24,984 nt of DNA, taken from Roseivirga sp. UBA6061 (GTDB taxonomy: Bacteria; Bacteroidota; Bacteroidia; Cytophagales; Cyclobacteriaceae). Under the pieces are notes generated by a model. The model saw only the letters and a program-made list of their open reading frames with translations, was not told the origin of the DNA and did no database searches. Positions 15,283-22,426 of this stretch are shown piece by piece (position 1 is the stretch's first letter; every line of letters begins with the position of its first letter). Where the stretch lies: NCBI GenBank assembly GCA_002427745.1, contig DIYF01000181.1, forward strand, positions 1 to 24,984. The letters run 5' to 3'. The translations under genes and the position numbers were made by a program.

Positions 15283-16242
15283 ATGAACAAACTTTTTCTT
15301 ACTGCCATTTTGTTTGGCTGGTTAAGTTGTATTGCCTTCGCTCAAGGCAAGGATACGACAGCAGTAGCTGATTCTACTCAGGTACCCGCTGTCAGCGATA
15401 CAATACCGGCCAAACCCGATAGTCTTATTTTCTGGAAACAAGGCGTGAAAATGAACATTAACCTGCAGCAGGTTGGCTTGACCAACTGGGCGGCCGGTGG
15501 TGAATCTTCTTTTGCGGTCGGCACCGTCATTGAGGGCCACATGAACTATGAGAAAGGCGAAGTGGTCTGGGAAAATAATGCGAAGATCGGTTATGGTGTG
15601 ATCCGAAACGGAGGCGAAGGAAATCGCTTTGAAAAGACCGATGATTTGCTCGATCTGACCTCCAAATACAGTCAGAAGTTCAGCGAGAAAGTGCTTATGT
15701 CTACCGCGATAAATTTCAAGACGCAGATGGATGAGGGAGTGAGAATTGAGAATGCCGGAACGGAAGACGAAGAAAGAGTGCTGATCTCTGATTTTATGTC
15801 TCCGGGCTATTTGCAGGCCTCCCTGGGGCTTTCCTATCGTGATGAAAAAGCTTTTACCACTACCCTGGCGCCTTTTACAGGCCGTTTTACCTTTGTGCTG
15901 AACGATACACTTTCTAAGCAGGGAGCTTTTGGGATTAACCCGGGAGACAAAATCAGGTCTGAGGCTGGTATCAGCTGGACGGGTGGGTATAAGAAGGATG
16001 TTTGGGAGAATGTGAAATTTCAGAGCAGCTTCAACTTCTTTTCCAACTATGAGAAGTTTCCCAATACGGTAGTCAACGTACAGGCAGGGCTGAACATGAA
16101 GGTGAACAACTTCATCTCTTCTAATATCAGTTCCCAGCTCATTTATGACGATGACGTAATTGTCACCCGCAATGATGGCAGTATGGGGCGGGATATTCAG
16201 CTAAAAAATGTGATAAACGTAGGGTTTACCCTGGGCTTTTAG
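15283..16242 (+). CDS. DUF3078 outer-membrane beta-barrel protein
   Basis: A 319-aa protein. I choose the ATG at 15283 over the TTG one codon earlier. A signal peptide (about 1-20, ending AFAQ) precedes a short Thr/Ala/Asp linker. The body starts with WKQGVKMNINLQQVGLTNWAAGGESSF, the hallmark of DUF3078 (a Bacteroidota family), then alternating amphipathic strands and a C-terminal Phe (NVGFTLGF) as expected for an outer-membrane barrel inserted by BamA. Function unknown. It is 42 nt after the transglycosylase gene and probably belongs to the same transcript. Its stop overlaps the stop of the convergent dnaX by 4 nt. Confidence 0.88.
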   Translation: MNKLFLTAILFGWLSCIAFAQGKDTTAVADSTQVPAVSDTIPAKPDSLIFWKQGVKMNINLQQVGLTNWAAGGESSFAVGTVIEGHMNYEKGEVVWENNAKIGYGVIRNGGEGNRFEKTDDLLDLTSKYSQKFSEKVLMSTAINFKTQMDEGVRIENAGTEDEERVLISDFMSPGYLQASLGLSYRDEKAFTTTLAPFTGRFTFVLNDTLSKQGAFGINPGDKIRSEAGISWTGGYKKDVWENVKFQSSFNFFSNYEKFPNTVVNVQAGLNMKVNNFISSNISSQLIYDDDVIVTRNDGSMGRDIQLKNVINVGFTLGF

Positions 16243-18028
16243 AACTCCGGATCTAGCCCTAACTTATCCTGTAGGTCTCTGAGAGCAGGGTATTTCTTTT
16301 TCAGGTGCTCGAATTTTTCCTGATCGGTATAGAGCATTTTTTCCTTATCAATCTGTACCTGCAGCGCCTTCAGTGTGATGGTGTCATTTTTCAGGCCATC
16401 TCTTATACTCTGTAGCACATCGGATTTTACCTTTTCAAAAGCAGACTCTAGCGCCTCATTGGCAATTTCCAGGGTGATGGCATGTCCGTCTACATGGTAC
16501 TTCTCCTTCAGGATCATAACTTCCTGATGGTTGCCGGCCGCTTCCATTTTTCTTAGAAAAATCGCCCACTGATCACGGATGTCCTCCTCTGTAAAAGGTT
16601 CTCTGCGGCTGTTGGCATTTCCTATGACCACCTTTTCCTCTTCCTGATCTTTATCCTCCGGCTGATTGATCTTTTCTTTCAGCGAAGACATATCCGGAAT
16701 GTTGAAGGTCCGGGAAGGAGACTTTTTAGGCGACCTGGGAATAGAAGGAGTGGCGACCGGGTCAGCAGGGGCGGCCGTTGTAGCAGGAGCAGTTGCCGGT
16801 GGTACAGTGGGGGCTGGCGCTGCCGGGCCCGAAGGATGACTTACAGGATTTTCGGGCTTCTGAGCTGTGGCCTCTGCTTTTTGGGGAGCTTGAGAAGGCT
16901 CAGCCTCTTCAGCTAGGATTTTTTTTTTGATGAGTCACCTTGAGTGCTCACTTGGGTCAGGCTGATGGCCGATTTCAGGTGGGCCATTTTAACCAGGCTA
17001 AGCTCCACATGAAGCCGCTGGTTTTTGCTCGATTTATAATTGATATCACAGCTGCTGGCGATATTCAGAGCTGTGAGCATAAATGACAAAGGTATTTTAT
17101 CACTTTGCTCCTTATAGCGAGCTTTGATATTGTCTGATACCTCCAGCAGGCCTATGGTGGCAGTGTCTTTTGAAACCATCAGATCACGGAAGTGAGCGGC
17201 CAGTCCCACAATAAAGTTGTGTCCGTCAAAACCTTTCTTCAGTATCTCATCAAAGGTCAGCAAAACATTGGCTGTATCCTCAGCAAAGAGATAGTCCGTC
17301 ATTCTGAAATAGTAGTCATAATCCAGAATGTGCAGGTTGTCTATCGTGGTTTGGTAAGAGACCTTTTTGCCATGAGAAAAGGTAACAATCAGGTCAAACA
17401 ATGAGAGGGCATCTCTCATAGCACCATCTGCTTTTTGGGCAATCAGGTGTAAGGCCTCATCTTCAGTTTCTATACTCTCTTTATCAGCGATTTTTTGTAG
17501 CTGATTGGAGATGTCGCTTACTTCAATTCTGTTGAAATCAAAGATCTGACAACGGGAGAGAATAGTAGGGATTACCTTGTGCTTTTCAGTGGTGGCCAGG
17601 ATGAAAATGGCATAAGATGGCGGCTCTTCCAGGGTCTTCAAAAAGGCATTGAAGGCCTGGTTTGAGAGCATGTGCACCTCATCTATGATATATACCTTGA
17701 ACTTTCCCTGCTGTGGAGGGTAACGTACCTGGTCTATCAGATTACGGATGTCGTCCACCGAGTTATTGGAGGCGGCATCAAGCTCGTAAATGTTGAAGGT
17801 GTCATTGCCTGCCAGCGGATTATCAATCTCCTGATCGTTGATCATCCGCGCCACAATACGGGCACAGGTGGTTTTGCCCACACCTCTGGGACCGCAAAAC
17901 AGCAGTGCCTGAGCGAGTTGGTTGTTGTCTATAGCGTTTTGAAGCGTAGTGGTAATGTGTTCCTGGCCTACTACCTCCTCAAAGCCAACCGGTCTGTATT
18001 TCCGTGCTGAGACAACAAAATTTTCCAT
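16239..18028 (-). CDS. dnaX: DNA polymerase III subunit tau (dnaX, full length by -1 frameshift)
   Basis: Full-length tau is encoded in two frames. Frame one (18028 to the A run at 16928-16919) gives ATPase and collar domains. After a -1 shift on the A run, the reading continues without a stop as ILAEEAEPSQAPQ, through a Pro/Ala/Thr-rich linker (about residues 371-445) into the C-terminal domain (…SLKEKINQ… to LGLDPEF) and stops at 16239. That totals 596 aa, the size expected for tau in this phylum. The C-terminal domain (about 450-596), with EDIRDQWAIFLRKM and LYTDQEKFEHLKKKYPAL, is what normally contacts the polymerase and helicase. There is no convincing separate promoter or start for it; the ATG at 16691 lies inside the same domain. 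A one-base error in the homopolymer in the sequence is the rival explanation. Confidence 0.85.
16887..16914 (-). promoter_or_regulatory. Hairpin just downstream of the dnaX slippery run
   Basis: Read on the minus strand: AGCT (16914-16911), GAAGAGGC (16910-16903), loop TGA, GCCTTCTC (16899-16892), one bulged A, AGCT (16890-16887). About ten base pairs form with one A/C mismatch and one G-U pair. It begins 4 nt after the A run and overlaps the zero-frame stop. This is a sensible position for a frameshift stimulator, although the stem is only moderately stable by eye. Confidence 0.45.
16913..18028 (-). CDS. dnaX: DNA polymerase III subunit gamma (dnaX, zero-frame product)
   Basis: The 371-aa zero-frame product ends SSKKKS and TAG right after the A run. 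Residues 1-165 hold the AAA+ clamp-loader ATPase: Walker A GPRGVGKTT (46-54, Lys52), Walker B with Asp116-Glu117 (IIDEVHML), sensor 1 at ILATTEKH and the SRC arginine finger (158-160). Residues 165-225 are the lid and 225-360 the collar domain. Loads the beta sliding clamp with delta and delta'. The product stops just after the collar, where gamma stops in other bacteria. The Cys4 zinc module between Walker A and the ELDAASN motif seen in E. coli DnaX is missing here (MINDQEIDNPLAGNDTFN). Start ATG at 18028 is unambiguous (MENFVVSARKYRPVGFEEV). Confidence 0.9.
   Translation of the reverse strand: MENFVVSARKYRPVGFEEVVGQEHITTTLQNAIDNNQLAQALLFCGPRGVGKTTCARIVARMINDQEIDNPLAGNDTFNIYELDAASNNSVDDIRNLIDQVRYPPQQGKFKVYIIDEVHMLSNQAFNAFLKTLEEPPSYAIFILATTEKHKVIPTILSRCQIFDFNRIEVSDISNQLQKIADKESIETEDEALHLIAQKADGAMRDALSLFDLIVTFSHGKKVSYQTTIDNLHILDYDYYFRMTDYLFAEDTANVLLTFDEILKKGFDGHNFIVGLAAHFRDLMVSKDTATIGLLEVSDNIKARYKEQSDKIPLSFMLTALNIASSCDINYKSSKNQRLHVELSLVKMAHLKSAISLTQVSTQGDSSKKKS
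16919..16928 (-). promoter_or_regulatory. Slippery A10 run in dnaX
   Basis: Ten consecutive A on the coding strand. Zero frame reads TCA-AAA-AAA-AAA-TCC-TAG; one base back reads AAA-ATC-CTA-GCT and stays open to the end of tau. AGGTGA, a good match to the Shine-Dalgarno consensus, lies 6 nt upstream (16940-16935), as in E. coli dnaX where an SD-like site stimulates the shift. The run also allows RNA polymerase slippage as in Thermus dnaX. Confidence 0.75.
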
Positions 18029-18791: not shown

Positions 18792-19156
18792 GGGGCCGAC
18801 TGGAATTGACAGTAGGTGCAATGCAGGTGTAAGCATGTCGGGAGTTGTTGGTATTTCCCGTAAACAAACCTTCAACATTTTAATTGGCGAAAGACAATAC
18901 GCCCTAGCTGCCTAATCAGATTTAGATAGCAATGTGTCTCACTGACCCCACCGTTCTGCCGGGTTGGTATATGAGGCATCACAAGCAGAACTGGTGCCGG
19001 TAGGTCTGTGATACCGGCATAAGATTAATCGCAGATAAGGATTATTTCTGGTTGGTTGCTGACCTGGATAGTTTCGAAAATCAATAGCAAATAAACATGT
19101 AGAAAGCGCTTAGTATTCCTTATCTGGACCAGGGTTCGAATCCCTGCGGCTCCACC
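18792..19156 (+). ncRNA. ssrA: tmRNA (ssrA)
   Basis: Transfer-messenger RNA for ribosome rescue. The 5' end GGGGCCGACTGGAATTGACAG is the tmRNA signature. The 3' end CGGCTCC (19147-19153) pairs with GGGGCCG to give a 7-bp acceptor with a G3-U pair, the alanine identity element; A19154 is the discriminator. The T arm is CAGGG-TTCGAAT-CCCTG (19130-19146). The full CCA is not encoded (ACC then T), so it needs 3' processing. Length about 365 nt is normal. The tag ORF is annotated separately. tmRNA 3' ends are frequent attachment sites for integrating elements. Confidence 0.95.
18886..18915 (+). other. tmRNA peptide-tag reading frame (GERQYALAA)
   Basis: GGC GAA AGA CAA TAC GCC CTA GCT GCC TAA encodes GERQYALAA and stop. 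The end YALAA is the protease-recognition signal for ClpXP-type degradation. A Gly-Glu start fits the tags known from Bacteroidota; Arg-Gln in the middle is less usual. The resume codon GGC is inferred from this comparison. Confidence 0.85.
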
Positions 19157-19197
19157 TTCGCCCACCGAAGCTCCTTAGAGCGAAGGTGGGCTTTTTT
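19152..19197 (+). terminator. Intrinsic terminator of ssrA with two alternative stems
   Basis: GCCCACC (19160-19166) pairs with GGTGGGC (19185-19191), enclosing GCTC/GAGC, and is followed at once by six T (19192-19197). A second perfect 10-bp pairing uses CCACCTTCGC (19152-19161), which includes the end of the tmRNA acceptor, with GCGAAGGTGG (19180-19189). Confidence 0.85.
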
Positions 19198-19333
19198 ATT
19201 CCTCAGGGCTACGAGCAGGGATTAAGTATCTCATGCGGGCTTCTGTGGAGAATCTCCACTATTTTCTTATTGATTTATGATAGCCAAAATTGTAGCTCCG
19301 GGCTGAAGTGATTACCTGTTTGTATATTCTGGA
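19198..19333. other. Gap after the tmRNA terminator, with a short palindrome
   Basis: No gene seen. GTGGAGA-A-TCTCCAC (19245-19259) is a perfect 7-bp inverted repeat followed by a T-rich stretch. It is a weak terminator candidate or a protein-binding site. Confidence 0.3.
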
Positions 19334-19570
19334 ATGCATACAGTTTACATTCTCAGATGTGCCGATGGATCGCACTATGTGGGTTGTACCAATAGCCTGC
19401 AGAATAGAATGTTGAGGCATAACAGAGGAGAGGTTCATTATACAAAATCGCACCTACCACTGGAAGTTATTACCACGATTAACTTTGAAGGCAGGTACAA
19501 GGCCTATGCCTTTGAGAAATACCTTAAGTCTGGCTCAGGTCGGGCATTTATGTACAAGCGCTTGATTTAA
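19334..19570 (+). CDS. Small GIY-YIG nuclease family protein
   Basis: A 78-aa single-domain protein of the UvrC/Slx1-type GIY-YIG superfamily. VYILRCADGSHYVGCTN carries the VYI and YVG forms of the GIY/YIG motifs, then the catalytic-type Arg (NRMLRHNRG) and the C-terminal FEKYLKSGSGRAF with the metal-binding Glu. Length matches the stand-alone bacterial members (80-100 aa), whose role is mostly unknown. It may be a DNA endonuclease; such genes often move with mobile elements. It lies directly after the tmRNA, at 136 bp from the terminator. Confidence 0.9.
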   Translation: MHTVYILRCADGSHYVGCTNSLQNRMLRHNRGEVHYTKSHLPLEVITTINFEGRYKAYAFEKYLKSGSGRAFMYKRLI

Positions 19571-19629
19571 AGCGAGGCATGTTGCCTGCTCTGAGCTCAA
19601 CTTAATAAAGCTCTGTTTTTTTAACCTCG

Positions 19630-19977
19630 TTAAACCACTTCAAGGGTATTCAGGTGATGCTTCACCTTGATACTTGCGCATAAAAGTTCGTAACACTCTT
19701 CGGCAACAAGGAGCAAATGATCAGGCTCTTCAGAAATGGAATGTAAGTGGGCATTTAAAACAAAACTATCATAGATGTCAAACCATTCCTCAAATGGCTC
19801 TTTCCCTAACCCCATCAATTGAGAAATGACCTCATAAAGCTTGAGAATGTACTCATCTGTATGCAGCTCAATCTTCCGAAGATTGCCGATGAGCTGATTG
19901 TGCTTTAAATCTGCTTGAATGAGGATGATTATGATGTCTCTATTTGTGTTAGAGTCTGGTTTGCTGTGTTCGCTCAT
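19630..19977 (-). CDS. Hypothetical protein (115 aa)
   Basis: I do not recognise this protein. It is helical throughout by composition, acidic (IELHTDEYILKLYEVISQL, PFEEWFDIYDSFVLNAHL, LLLVAEECYELL), with no signal peptide or membrane segment. It is convergent to the GIY-YIG gene and divergent from the HTH gene, with a repeat-rich 146-bp control region at its start. AT-rich flanks and position suggest an accessory gene. Confidence 0.55.
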   Translation of the reverse strand: MSEHSKPDSNTNRDIIIILIQADLKHNQLIGNLRKIELHTDEYILKLYEVISQLMGLGKEPFEEWFDIYDSFVLNAHLHSISEEPDHLLLVAEECYELLCASIKVKHHLNTLEVV

Positions 19978-20005
19978 TTCTCGTTTTAATTGATTGGTTA
20001 AACCT

Positions 20006-20113
20006 TTACAGAAAATCTGTACAATTTTAAAGAATTCATTTCAAATGAACAAACGCTTTTAAAGAATGAATATACATTCTTTAATTTTATCCGATATTAC
20101 TTACAGAAAATCT
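20006..20113. promoter_or_regulatory. Repeat-dense divergent control region
   Basis: Between the 115-aa gene and the HTH gene. It contains: direct repeats TTACAGAAAATCT at 20006-20018 and 20101-20113; direct repeats TTTTAAAGAAT at 20025-20035 and 20057-20067 (32 bp apart, three helical turns); inverted repeat TTCATTT-C-AAATGAA at 20035-20049; inverted repeat TTAAAGAATG / CATTCTTTAA with a 6-bp spacer at 20059-20084. The arrangement resembles operators for a helix-turn-helix repressor that controls both divergent genes. Confidence 0.55.
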
Positions 20114-20123
20114 TAAAAAAGAG

Positions 20124-20342
20124 ATGACTGAGTTAGGAGTGTACTTAGCAAAAAGATCAATTAACAAGTCAGAGGTTTCACGAAAAACAGGGATTAGTAA
20201 ACCGAGATTGAGTGAGCTTACCTTAAAAGAGACGGCACATTTAAGAGCCAGGGAGCTGTACCTTATTTCTATGGCTATTGGGGCTGACCCTTGTGAGGTA
20301 TTGAAAGAAATTTTTGACGATGTAGAGTTGAAAAATAGCTAG
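20124..20342 (+). CDS. HTH (XRE/Cro-like) DNA-binding protein, 72 aa
   Basis: A 72-aa Cro/C1-type helix-turn-helix protein. INKSEVSRKTGISKPRLSEL (about 13-32) is the HTH, followed by ELYLISMAIGADPCEVL, which completes the five-helix fold. There is no extra domain, so it is probably a regulator only. It is followed after 3 nt by a 59-aa gene, forming a two-gene unit. Palindromes upstream suggest it represses its own promoter and perhaps the divergent gene. Confidence 0.8.
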   Translation: MTELGVYLAKRSINKSEVSRKTGISKPRLSELTLKETAHLRARELYLISMAIGADPCEVLKEIFDDVELKNS

Positions 20343-20345
20343 ACC

Positions 20346-20525
20346 ATGAATGAAAACCTTACCAAGGAGGACCTAGATTTCATTCTTACATCTTTGGACT
20401 ACACAAGGTTGAAATTTGAGGATTATCAAGACTACCCCGATTACAAGTTTAAACGGGAACGTTTGGATAGAGTAGAGCAAGTAATAGCCAGGGTAAGGAA
20501 GTTGAAACAAGACTGGATCGATTAG
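20346..20525 (+). CDS. Small protein (59 aa) paired with the HTH gene
   Basis: The ATG at 20346 opens 60 codons ending in TAG at 20525. It encodes a charged helical protein: MNENLTKEDLDFILTSLDY at the N-terminus, KFKRERLDRVEQVIARVRKL at the C-terminus, with a Tyr/Asp-rich middle (DYQDYPDY). No signal peptide or membrane segment. The start is 3 nt after the HTH stop, so the two are co-translated. A real gene is suggested by coding-like composition and placement. Function unknown; a partner or toxin-like role would be speculation. Confidence 0.6.
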   Translation: MNENLTKEDLDFILTSLDYTRLKFEDYQDYPDYKFKRERLDRVEQVIARVRKLKQDWID

Positions 20526-20723
20526 AGGAAAACATATATCATTCCTACCGATCGACAATCACCTCCCTCAAATCACACGAAGCGCCAGGTTCACTCGCTT
20601 TCTCAAACATTGACTAAATAGTCATTTCCGCGAAAGAGGGAATCCCTGTCGCCACCTGAATTATCATATAAAGTATAAGGCACGGGGGTATGACAATTCA
20701 TCGGAAGAGTTTTATTTTGAGCT
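20526..20723. other. Intergenic region with a REP-like hairpin
   Basis: No gene seen. TGACTA-AA-TAGTCA (20611-20624) is a palindrome. It runs into 20621-20646, a sequence resembling widespread REP-type repeats: ATTTCCGC, GAAA loop, GAGGGAAT, a hairpin with one G/A mismatch. Confidence 0.35.
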
Positions 20724-21077
20724 ATGCTTGAAATACTCATTCAACTCATCATTACGCCCCTAGTACTGCTTATGGCTTCCAAAAGCATGAAGGGCGTTTA
20801 TATCAAAGATGCTCGGGCAGCTTTTTTTACCTCCCTGGTGATCTTTATTGTGGGCTTTGTGGCGGGTTGGCTGCTTACCCTGATTTTCAATATTGCTACA
20901 CTGGGGCTGTTCTGGATGGTTGGGCTGGGAGTCGTTACCCGGGTTTTGGCCTATGCCGTAATCATCGAGGTGATTGATCAGTACCGGGATGATTTTGATA
21001 CCGATGGTTTTTTACCCTCTCTGTGGCTTTCTATTCTGTTGGCCATTACCTGGGGTGTCATCGACTATTTGGTCTGA
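20724..21077 (+). CDS. Phage-holin-4/YvlD-like small membrane protein
   Basis: A 117-aa protein with four hydrophobic segments (about 2-20, 33-53, 58-80, 97-117) and short charged loops (MKGVYIKDARAAFFTS, IDQYRDDFDTDGF). The arrangement and the turn GxGxVTRVLAYAV match the phage_holin_4_2/DUF360 type, common in chromosomes and not evidence of a prophage by itself. Function unknown; membrane stress links are known for YvlD. It is followed by a terminator-like hairpin. Confidence 0.7.
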   Translation: MLEILIQLIITPLVLLMASKSMKGVYIKDARAAFFTSLVIFIVGFVAGWLLTLIFNIATLGLFWMVGLGVVTRVLAYAVIIEVIDQYRDDFDTDGFLPSLWLSILLAITWGVIDYLV

Positions 21078-21081
21078 TAAA

Positions 21082-21107
21082 AAAAGAGGCCTCTGCAAGC
21101 CTCTTTT
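21082..21107 (+). terminator. Hairpin terminator after the holin-like gene
   Basis: AAAAGAGGC (21082-21090) and GCCTCTTTT (21099-21107) form a 9-bp inverted repeat with an 8-nt loop. It is preceded by A residues and ends in four T, so it may act in both directions; the core stem is GAGGC/GCCTC. Confidence 0.7.
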
Positions 21108-21158
21108 AAAATATCCATATACACTTTAATTCTACCTTGGTTGTCCCGAAAGTATAGT

Positions 21159-21187
21159 AGGGTAAATTAAATAGTTGAATTTATCCT
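21159..21187. repeat. Imperfect inverted repeat upstream of the second HTH gene
   Basis: AGGGTAAATT (21159-21168) and AATTTATCCT (21178-21187) match in nine of ten positions around a 9-nt centre. It may be an additional operator. Confidence 0.35.
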
Positions 21188-21219
21188 ATAATTTTAAAGA
21201 TAAAACAATAATTTCTTGA

Positions 21220-21261
21220 AGTCAACATGTAGGTTGACTATTGAGTCAAATGATATGTTTT
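21220..21261 (+). promoter_or_regulatory. Promoter with palindromic operators of the second HTH gene
   Basis: AGTCAAC (21220-21226) and GTTGACT (21233-21239) form a 7-bp inverted repeat; TTGACT (21234-21239) pairs again with AGTCAA (21244-21249) 4 nt further on. These three half-sites overlap a promoter: TTG (21234-21236), 17 nt, TATGTTTT (21254-21261; seven of eight matches to TAnnTTTG). The ATG is at 21271. Autorepression by the HTH protein is the simplest reading. Confidence 0.6.
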
Positions 21262-21270
21262 ACTTGATTT

Positions 21271-21528
21271 ATGGATGAGCGAAAAGTCCGAAAAAAAGAA
21301 CAATTGGTCGCTTTTGGTGAACACCTGAGGTCTCTCAGAATGGACCAGGGCTTAAGTGGTGTGCAGTTTGCCGAAAAGCTGGGGGTCGACAAACAATTTT
21401 TGAGTCGACTGGAATTAGGACAAAGCGATCCCCGCATTACTACCTTGATCAGGCTGGCACAGGCCCTGGATATGCAACTCTCCGATCTGCTCAATCAAAT
21501 GAAGTATCCACCTAGTCTGGAGGAGTAA
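21271..21528 (+). CDS. HTH (XRE/Cro-like) regulator, 85 aa
   Basis: An 85-aa Cro/C1-type protein. LRSLRMDQGLSGVQFAEKLGVDKQFLSRLELGQSDPRITTLIRLAQALDM covers the five helices, with the recognition helix around KQFLSRLE (41-48) and the family turn LGQSDP. There is no sensor domain. The start ATG is 9 nt from the putative -7 element. It is most likely an autorepressor or regulator of the nearby genes; the targets are not visible. Confidence 0.85.
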   Translation: MDERKVRKKEQLVAFGEHLRSLRMDQGLSGVQFAEKLGVDKQFLSRLELGQSDPRITTLIRLAQALDMQLSDLLNQMKYPPSLEE

Positions 21529-21531
21529 GCC

Positions 21532-21610
21532 TTCGCTAAAGCTTCGGCTTACAATGTGGCCTGCTATAGTTTACGATGTGGTATTCGCTGAGGCTTCGGC
21601 TTACAAAGTG
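21532..21610. repeat. Imperfect tandem direct repeat (27 bp units, 52 bp apart)
   Basis: Units 21532-21558 and 21584-21610 both contain GCTTCGGCTTACAA with TTCGCT before it; three of 27 positions differ. The intervening sequence has loose similarity to what follows the second unit, so this may be a degenerate 52-bp tandem duplication. Confidence 0.6.
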
Positions 21611-21637
21611 TTCTGGTATGTTCAATCAGAGGTGGGC

Positions 21638-22426
21638 TTAGAGAAATCTGGTAAAAGCTTCGGGATTGTTCAAAAACTGCTTCATGATGGTGAAGTGCTC
21701 AGTTTCTTCAAAGCTGGTTTCTTCAATGCGCTCACCAAACTCGTATAGCTGGCTGTGAGGCAAAGTCATAAGAATAGGGGAGTGTGTGGCAATAATAAAC
21801 TGACAACGAGCTTCTTCTGCCAGGTTCTTGATCATAGCATAAAGGCTCAGCTGGCGTTGGGGAGAAAGGGCTGCTTCCGGTTCATCTATCAGGTAAATGC
21901 CTTCAGGCTGTAGCCTTTGCTGAAGTACTTTGATAAAGCCTTCGCCATGAGAGACCTGATAGAGATCTCCGTATTTTCGCCTAAGCGCTTCCTTCTGACC
22001 ATAGATAGAGCCAACAGCCTGCTTCAGGCCGGTACCGGAAAGATTTTTTTCAAAATCTACAATGTCCTTGTCCAGTTCTGAATCAATGTTTTTCAGGCGC
22101 TTTGCAAAACCGAAATAGTCTTCCGCTCTGAAGAAAAAACCACGATGTACTTTCTGTGTATGCCAGCGTCCTCTCATGCTGTCACTGAGGAGGCGTACTC
22201 CTTCAAGCGATTCATCCCGTTCAAGGTCGGTACTGCCAATGGCGGGCAGGTTCATGTAAATCGCCAGGGATTTGAGTAAAGTAGACTTGCCTGATCCGTT
22301 TTCACCTACAAAAATGGTGATGGGTTCGGTAAACCACATGCCCTTGAAGTTTCTGAAGCCGGGCAGGTTGAAAGGGTAGCTGTCTATACCTGCGGGCGGT
22401 AGATTGAAGCCCTGGAAATAGATCAT
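21638..22426 (-). CDS. AAA/ABC-type ATPase (COG3910-like)
   Basis: A 262-aa SMC/ABC-like ATPase without accessory domains. Walker A GENGSGKST (41-49, Lys47), signature-like VSHGEGF (Ser159, Gly161) in place of LSGGQ, Walker B YLIDEPE (178-184, catalytic Glu182) and the H-loop THS (His215). SHGE in the signature with the short insert is the mark of the COG3910 predicted ATPases. Role unknown; related proteins are found in DNA repair and defence contexts. Its ATG overlaps the stop of the helicase gene by 4 nt (ATGA), so both are made from one mRNA and probably act together. Confidence 0.88.
   Translation of the reverse strand: MIYFQGFNLPPAGIDSYPFNLPGFRNFKGMWFTEPITIFVGENGSGKSTLLKSLAIYMNLPAIGSTDLERDESLEGVRLLSDSMRGRWHTQKVHRGFFFRAEDYFGFAKRLKNIDSELDKDIVDFEKNLSGTGLKQAVGSIYGQKEALRRKYGDLYQVSHGEGFIKVLQQRLQPEGIYLIDEPEAALSPQRQLSLYAMIKNLAEEARCQFIIATHSPILMTLPHSQLYEFGERIEETSFEETEHFTIMKQFLNNPEAFTRFL

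Follow-up and report, generated by a model that had tools for sequence, protein, structure and literature searches.

The window analysed here is a stretch of 24,984 nucleotides from Roseivirga sp. UBA6061 (contig DIYF01000181.1), whose minus strand carries a dnaX gene divided between two reading frames at a run of ten A (A10). Read along the minus strand, the junction is GAC TCA TCA AAA AAA AAA TCC TAG, and the features around it are as follows.

16913..18028, minus strand: gamma, the zero frame of dnaX with its stop (371 aa: AAA+ ATPase, lid and domain III); NCBIfam PRK14971 positions 1-374, TIGR02397 E = 2.3e-116
16935..16940, minus strand: SD-like AGGTGA, with at most weak evidence of selection
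16919..16928, minus strand: A10 run, the putative slippage site; invariant in 18/18 same-genus loci
16913..16915, minus strand: TAG, the zero-frame stop ending gamma, one codon past the run
16909..16911, minus strand: TGA shutting the third frame (that of an mRNA short of one A), 7 nt past the run, read from the sequence
16887..16914, minus strand: possible hairpin, unconserved in the genus, with wider folds no better than shuffles
16239..16919, minus strand: tau C-terminal part in the -1 frame (226 aa); PRK14971 positions 387-612, E = 2.5e-23

An earlier note on this DNA had described dnaX as split at an A10 run just before a stop, with the -1 frame continuing through the tau C-terminal part, and both descriptions were borne out. 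A10 (16928-16919) is followed by TCC and by the TAG at 16915-16913, 3 bases downstream of the run, and the -1 frame stays open for 225 codons beyond the TAG, to 16239. The gamma and tau pieces matched adjoining parts of a single model, NF011531/PRK14971 (1-374 and 387-612 of 614), either piece by itself scoring under the model's curated cut-off. If an added A in the mRNA or a -1 ribosomal shift were to connect the tail with gamma, the predicted tau would be ~596 aa. Pfam scans of the tau tail piece from the window found no domain; stand-alone homologues of the tail carry the precomputed Pfam family PF28557. Stops lie in both non-tau frames 3 and 7 nt past A10, and the run itself holds A AAA AAA twice in the zero frame. 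The 8.18 Mb genome has just 5 stretches of ten A on either strand, the dnaX run included, a rarity that excludes chance as the origin of the run.

Two known dnaX systems yield the same pair of products that the window gene would yield. Escherichia coli dnaX relies on a ribosomal -1 shift on A_AAA_AAG with an SD element and a hairpin (PMC3711429, PMC5009743, in the sections available); there, tau is the zero-frame product, the heptamer ends in AAG and a hairpin follows, none of which holds at the window. Thermus thermophilus dnaX, according to the available sections of PMC1088944 and PMC5009743, relies on transcriptional slippage on A9, and mRNA length classes decide the product, as is proposed likewise at the window. 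The window resembles Thermus in having at least nine A between the gamma and tau parts and stops close by in both non-tau frames, but the zero-frame product is tau in Thermus and gamma at the window. By this analogy, the window dnaX may work like that of Thermus, though arranged differently.

The arrangement has a closer published precedent. In the part of their paper available to us, Antonov et al. (2013; PMC3711429) listed 17 dnaX genes from 12 genera that need recoding for tau, nine of which had a ten-A run, and from sequence proposed transcriptional realignment for these. The window gene is of this type, with the gamma stop in the zero frame, tau in the -1 frame at the DNA level and A10 between them, and we likewise found two adjacent dnaX ORFs whose poly-A junction is kept in relatives. 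A split A10 dnaX with slippage inferred was therefore already published in 2013, and the window is a further case. The survey below adds three features that are absent from the available text of PMC3711429, namely single-frame relatives that retain the run, stops in the third frame and ribosomal replacements.

The arrangement was uniform within the genus. A search of 19 genomes gave 18, including our own, with a usable dnaX 3' end (G008, a weak partial match, was left out), and all 18 loci had A10, a stop exactly one codon on and a -1 frame open for 203-239 codons.

We further investigated the occurrence of the run across the Bacteroidota. A dnaX match was obtained in 281/295 genomes of the family, 124/128 of the order, 106/109 of the class and 107/109 of the phylum. 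The survey loci comprised search-returned and hand-picked stretches, spread over genera and including both short and long open frames. Of 309 loci collected, 301 were counted after removal of 5 duplicates and 3 that were open to the locus end; 80 named loci were kept apart from the 301, as several are the same contigs. A run of A9-A11 was found at the gamma/tau junction in 270/301 loci (223 A10, 33 A9 and 14 A11, where some of the A9 and A11 genomes may be homopolymer miscalls). By distance from the window, this equated to 18/18 loci in the genus, 98/99 in the family, 58/62 in the order, 68/79 in the class and 28/43 in the rest of the phylum, and the 31 loci lacking a long run were distributed as 1, 4, 11 and 15 from family to rest of phylum. 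Comparison of A runs among relatives, which the earlier note had suggested, showed a widespread long run, but the tau frame behind it varied. The same note had held that an unbroken dnaX frame lacking the run in relatives would count against a programmed site. Such loci do exist (29/301, with 0 in the family, plus 11 Pontibacter loci outside the count), and a continuous dnaX that retains the long run was commoner (96/270).

Tau lay in the -1 frame, corresponding to one added A, in 167 of the 270 long-run loci, in the zero frame, as in Thermus, in 96 and in the +1 frame, corresponding to one A fewer, in 7, although split:continuous proportions must not be read from this hand-picked, non-random survey. 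Three of the seven -A loci have A10 (L179, L307 and L341); L341 carries an extra C before the run compared with its relatives. On a single FastTree tree of the gamma part, on which all of these change counts rest, the 301 loci required at least 46 frame changes and at least 39 changes in run phase, and the A10-only subset (223 loci) at least 35 and at least 31, respectively. Among the 21 genera of the home family with two or more loci, 17 were in a single state and 4 were mixed. Genera g13, g26, g71 and g80 were continuous throughout, yet kept A9 or A10. Three of the mixed genera (g29, g37 and g63) each hinge on one genome of differing run length and may reflect miscalls; g36 was mixed though A10 was present in every locus.

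The stops behind the run were far closer than expected. Both non-tau frames were shut within 5 codons at 75.6% of the 270 loci compared to 9.1% at control positions, with a median of 3.3 against null medians of 14.2-21.0; the loci are related rather than independent, and these figures and those that follow are effect sizes, not probabilities. The third frame, for which the null was the same frame at other positions of the same gene's tau part, was shut within 5 codons in 86% of split loci (null 34%, n = 167) and in 68% of continuous loci (null 30%, n = 96). If -1 ribosomal frameshifting alone mattered, this frame, which lies beyond its reach, should be unconstrained, and its closure therefore favours slippage. 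Taken rank by rank, third-frame medians fell outside the null for split loci of the family, order and class and for continuous loci of the class, at the edge of the null range for split loci of the outer phylum, and inside it for the genus and for continuous loci of the family, order and phylum. As several single-rank medians fall within the null, the third-frame signal rests on pooled, related loci.

The earlier note had framed the run with an SD-like motif upstream and a hairpin downstream. AGGTGA is indeed present (16940-16935), and within the genus the window species alone has it, with GGTGA found at the SD-like position in 8/18 congeners. SD-like 4-mers occurred at 80/270 long-run loci compared to 8/270 at one upstream control, an apparent excess that shrank against 60 synonymous shuffles (mean 72, range 59-87), and the motif therefore found little support as a stimulator, its count being what the amino acids predict. 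Mean anti-SD pairing energy (-3.85) was still a little stronger than in any of the 60 shuffles (-3.73 to -3.27), consistent with a contribution to frameshifting from SD pairing that may exist but would be weak. Likewise, a local fold exists, with the 30 nt starting 3 nt past the run folding at -11.1 kcal/mol compared to 0.0 to -7.6 in 17 congeners, but it is not conserved in the genus, and the wider folds at the window were at shuffle level (81 nt around the site, z = +0.29; 50 nt downstream of the run, z = +0.44), so a conserved downstream hairpin was rejected. Over all long-run loci, folding was near background downstream, with a small excess (z < -2 in 9.6% versus 4.4% at control), and showed a small excess upstream (15.6% versus 7.4%). 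At one locus (L035), a perfect-looking, terminator-like stem, CCCCTTC..GAAGGGG, ends one base before A10.

In-frame A_AAA_AAG at the run end was found in only 43/270 loci and is absent at the window, where the run is followed by T and the zero frame reads TCA AAA AAA AAA TCC. A pattern search, which does not amount to tRNA annotation, saw only tRNA-Lys(UUU) in our own genome. Across 19 genomes the same search gave UUU only in 16 and CUU as well in 3 (G454, G528 and G574); the UUU-only set mixes long-run and ribosomal-type genomes, and a sole tRNA-Lys was accordingly discarded as a discriminator of mechanism.

Two of the loci lacking the long run had clear ribosomal signals. L055 carries A_AAA_AAG in frame with a strong hairpin (z = -4.4) and has tau in the -1 frame; L158 carries the same heptamer in frame with a still stronger hairpin (z = -6.6), has tau in the zero frame and meets a -1 stop after one codon. 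In its heptamer, early -1 stop and hairpin, L158 resembles E. coli dnaX as described in the available sections of the papers cited above. Both are alone among their relatives. The other seven genomes in the genus of L055, including that of L058, keep A10, and of the eight family genomes that include L158, six others have A9-A11 and one (G400) gave an N-terminal piece only. We regard L055 and L158 as well-supported candidates for conversion from slippage to ribosomal frameshifting. Pontibacter is tentatively a further one. All 11 of its loci among the 80 named (L240, L242, L244, L246, L248, L252, L253, L255, L257, L259 and L261) have A7 then G and a continuous frame, meet a -1 stop at once and carry a short stem 5-6 nt downstream. 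The folding z of this stem ranged from -0.8 to -3.2 and was below -2 in 7/11 loci; no covariation was seen in it across the 11 loci, the core pairs being invariant and the outer pairs broken in 2 and 3 of 11. Other loci showed weaker or no such signals. L181 has A7G, a continuous frame and A_AAA_AAG in frame, but no hairpin (z = +0.8); L227 resembles it, with A7G and a split frame. L138 has A8. L292 (AAAAAAC, z = -1.8), L351 (AAAAAAA, z = -1.5), L382 and L401 (both GGGAAAG, z = -0.4 and +1.6) and L318, in which no tail was found, were not counted as ribosomal.

The conservation described above strongly supports, at the level of sequence, programmed production of gamma and tau. The mechanism, which the earlier note had left open between a ribosomal shift and slippage, is now better accounted for by transcriptional slippage, because the run is retained independently of frame, both non-tau frames are shut early and ribosomal stimulators are weak or absent, and also because two of the 31 no-run loci carry A_AAA_AAG with strong hairpins. 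We put at roughly three in four the probability that dnaX is a programmed two-product gene in which RNA-polymerase slippage on A10 is the main source of frame heterogeneity. RNA polymerase would copy A10 with variable length. A faithful mRNA would be read to the TAG one codon past the run and give gamma; an mRNA with one added A, or other 3n+1 additions, would fuse gamma to the C-terminal frame and give tau; and an mRNA with one A fewer would meet TGA within three codons and give a gamma-like product. We infer a mainly transcriptional rather than ribosomal origin for the heterogeneity, and any product ratio would be inferred too.

Across much of the Bacteroidota, dnaX then probably carries an old, frame-independent slippage switch, in which ~A10 is kept whilst the frame drifts among three arrangements, some lineages having swapped the run for ribosomal signals (L055, L158 and possibly Pontibacter). 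Drift behind a kept run would be tolerated because slippage would supply every frame and nearby stops would turn the unwanted frames into gamma. This wide, frame-independent retention of the run is the part that appears new, and it was not met with among the titles and abstract openings listed for dnaX, slippage and frameshifting in the open-licence PMC library, or in the available sections of the three papers cited here.

Slippage and a ribosomal share could also act together in tuning the gamma:tau ratio, a possibility that overlaps with the slippage explanation and that we consider fairly unlikely. The ribosome may contribute because A10 contains A_AAA_AAA in frame, so that the run allows both processes, and the bias towards +A loci (167 versus 7 -A) fits -1 ribosomal frameshifting too, though 96 of the 167 belong to one family. 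Folding slightly above control upstream and downstream of the run points the same way, as does the anti-SD pairing; indeed, the pairing-energy result and the rank-by-rank stop check weaken the case for slippage and widen the scope for both mechanisms together. A conserved ribosomal stimulator, however, was found neither at the locus nor in the genus.

That tau is made by ribosomal -1 frameshifting on A_AAA_AAA within the run, as a role-reversed E. coli type, we judge improbable. The available sections of Atkins et al. (2016; PMC5009743) mention the reversed arrangement, point out that changing one base can exchange the roles and describe such cases as ribosomal. The heptamer occurs twice in the zero frame, and of the 174 long-run loci with tau outside the zero frame, 167 have it in the -1 frame. 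In addition, tRNA-Lys(UUU) was the only tRNA-Lys that the pattern search detected in our own genome, there is an upstream AGGTGA, and pairing with the anti-SD is on average slightly stronger over the loci than in the shuffles. Against this, a length of ~10 rather than 7 is retained while the run shifts codon phase, and in the pooled data the third frame is shut too. The hairpin is unconserved and SD-like 4-mers are not in excess, tau is in the other frame at seven loci, of which three have A10, and both loci with clear ribosomal signals lack the long run. Transcriptional slippage remains the preferred source of tau.

It is very improbable that dnaX is decaying, with gamma as its sole product and the tail a remnant. 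The tail is catalogued as a stand-alone protein, hypothetical in one Roseivirga record, as a remnant might be; however, the -1 frame exceeds 200 open codons in all 18 congeners, and the own C-terminal 160 aa matched 215/270 tails (0/28 of those from outside the class). Moreover, between the tail at the window (L002) and that of its nearest sister (L003), dN was 0.136 and dS 2.73 (dN/dS ~0.05), the one usable comparison out of six, with dS near saturation and the other five giving no dS estimate, which indicates purifying selection on the tau tail between the two species. Finally, although homopolymers are prone to error and lone A9 or A11 exceptions inside genera (L039, L069 and L086) may be miscalls, the sequencing or assembly indel in a truly single-frame dnaX that the earlier note had allowed for is not credible and was dropped, as 18 assemblies would all have to share it, the split arrangement being identical in 17/17 other congeners with a readable dnaX 3' end and recurring at most of the loci retrieved from the family.

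These data suggest how a large phylum, the Bacteroidota, makes its two clamp-loader subunits, and they offer natural comparisons between related species with zero-frame and shifted tau, and between polymerase slippage and its ribosomal swaps. They also expose an annotation problem, in that the tau half stands as a separate entry, which the Roseivirga record mentioned above names a hypothetical protein and a few other records name gamma/tau.

Further A10 stretches were seen in the same genome. One (L421; G000:C96:8104-8113) starts at codon 5 of a frame opened by ATG. Beyond the run, the 392-codon body of what looks like a cystathionine-lyase-like PLP enzyme is out of frame with that ATG. Of two matching proteins, P0004 (95% identical) is single-frame and lacks the long lysine stretch, and P0008 (100% identical) has 330 aa; candidate causes of the split are slippage, phase variation, decay or an error of assembly. 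Two contigs, at the end of G000:C90 (L420) and the start of G000:C51 (L419), end in the same A10 stretch, with ORFs that correspond to the transmembrane and the C-terminal domain of LiaF; they seem to be one LiaF-like gene that the assembly broke at A10 between its two domains. Near dnaX, a tmRNA gene lies on the plus strand (window positions 18792-19156) with the tag GERQYALAA. The adjacent ~2.5 kb (19160-21638) holds short ORFs only, among them two proteins that we take, judging the motifs by eye, to be helix-turn-helix-like and one that we take to be GIY-YIG-like.
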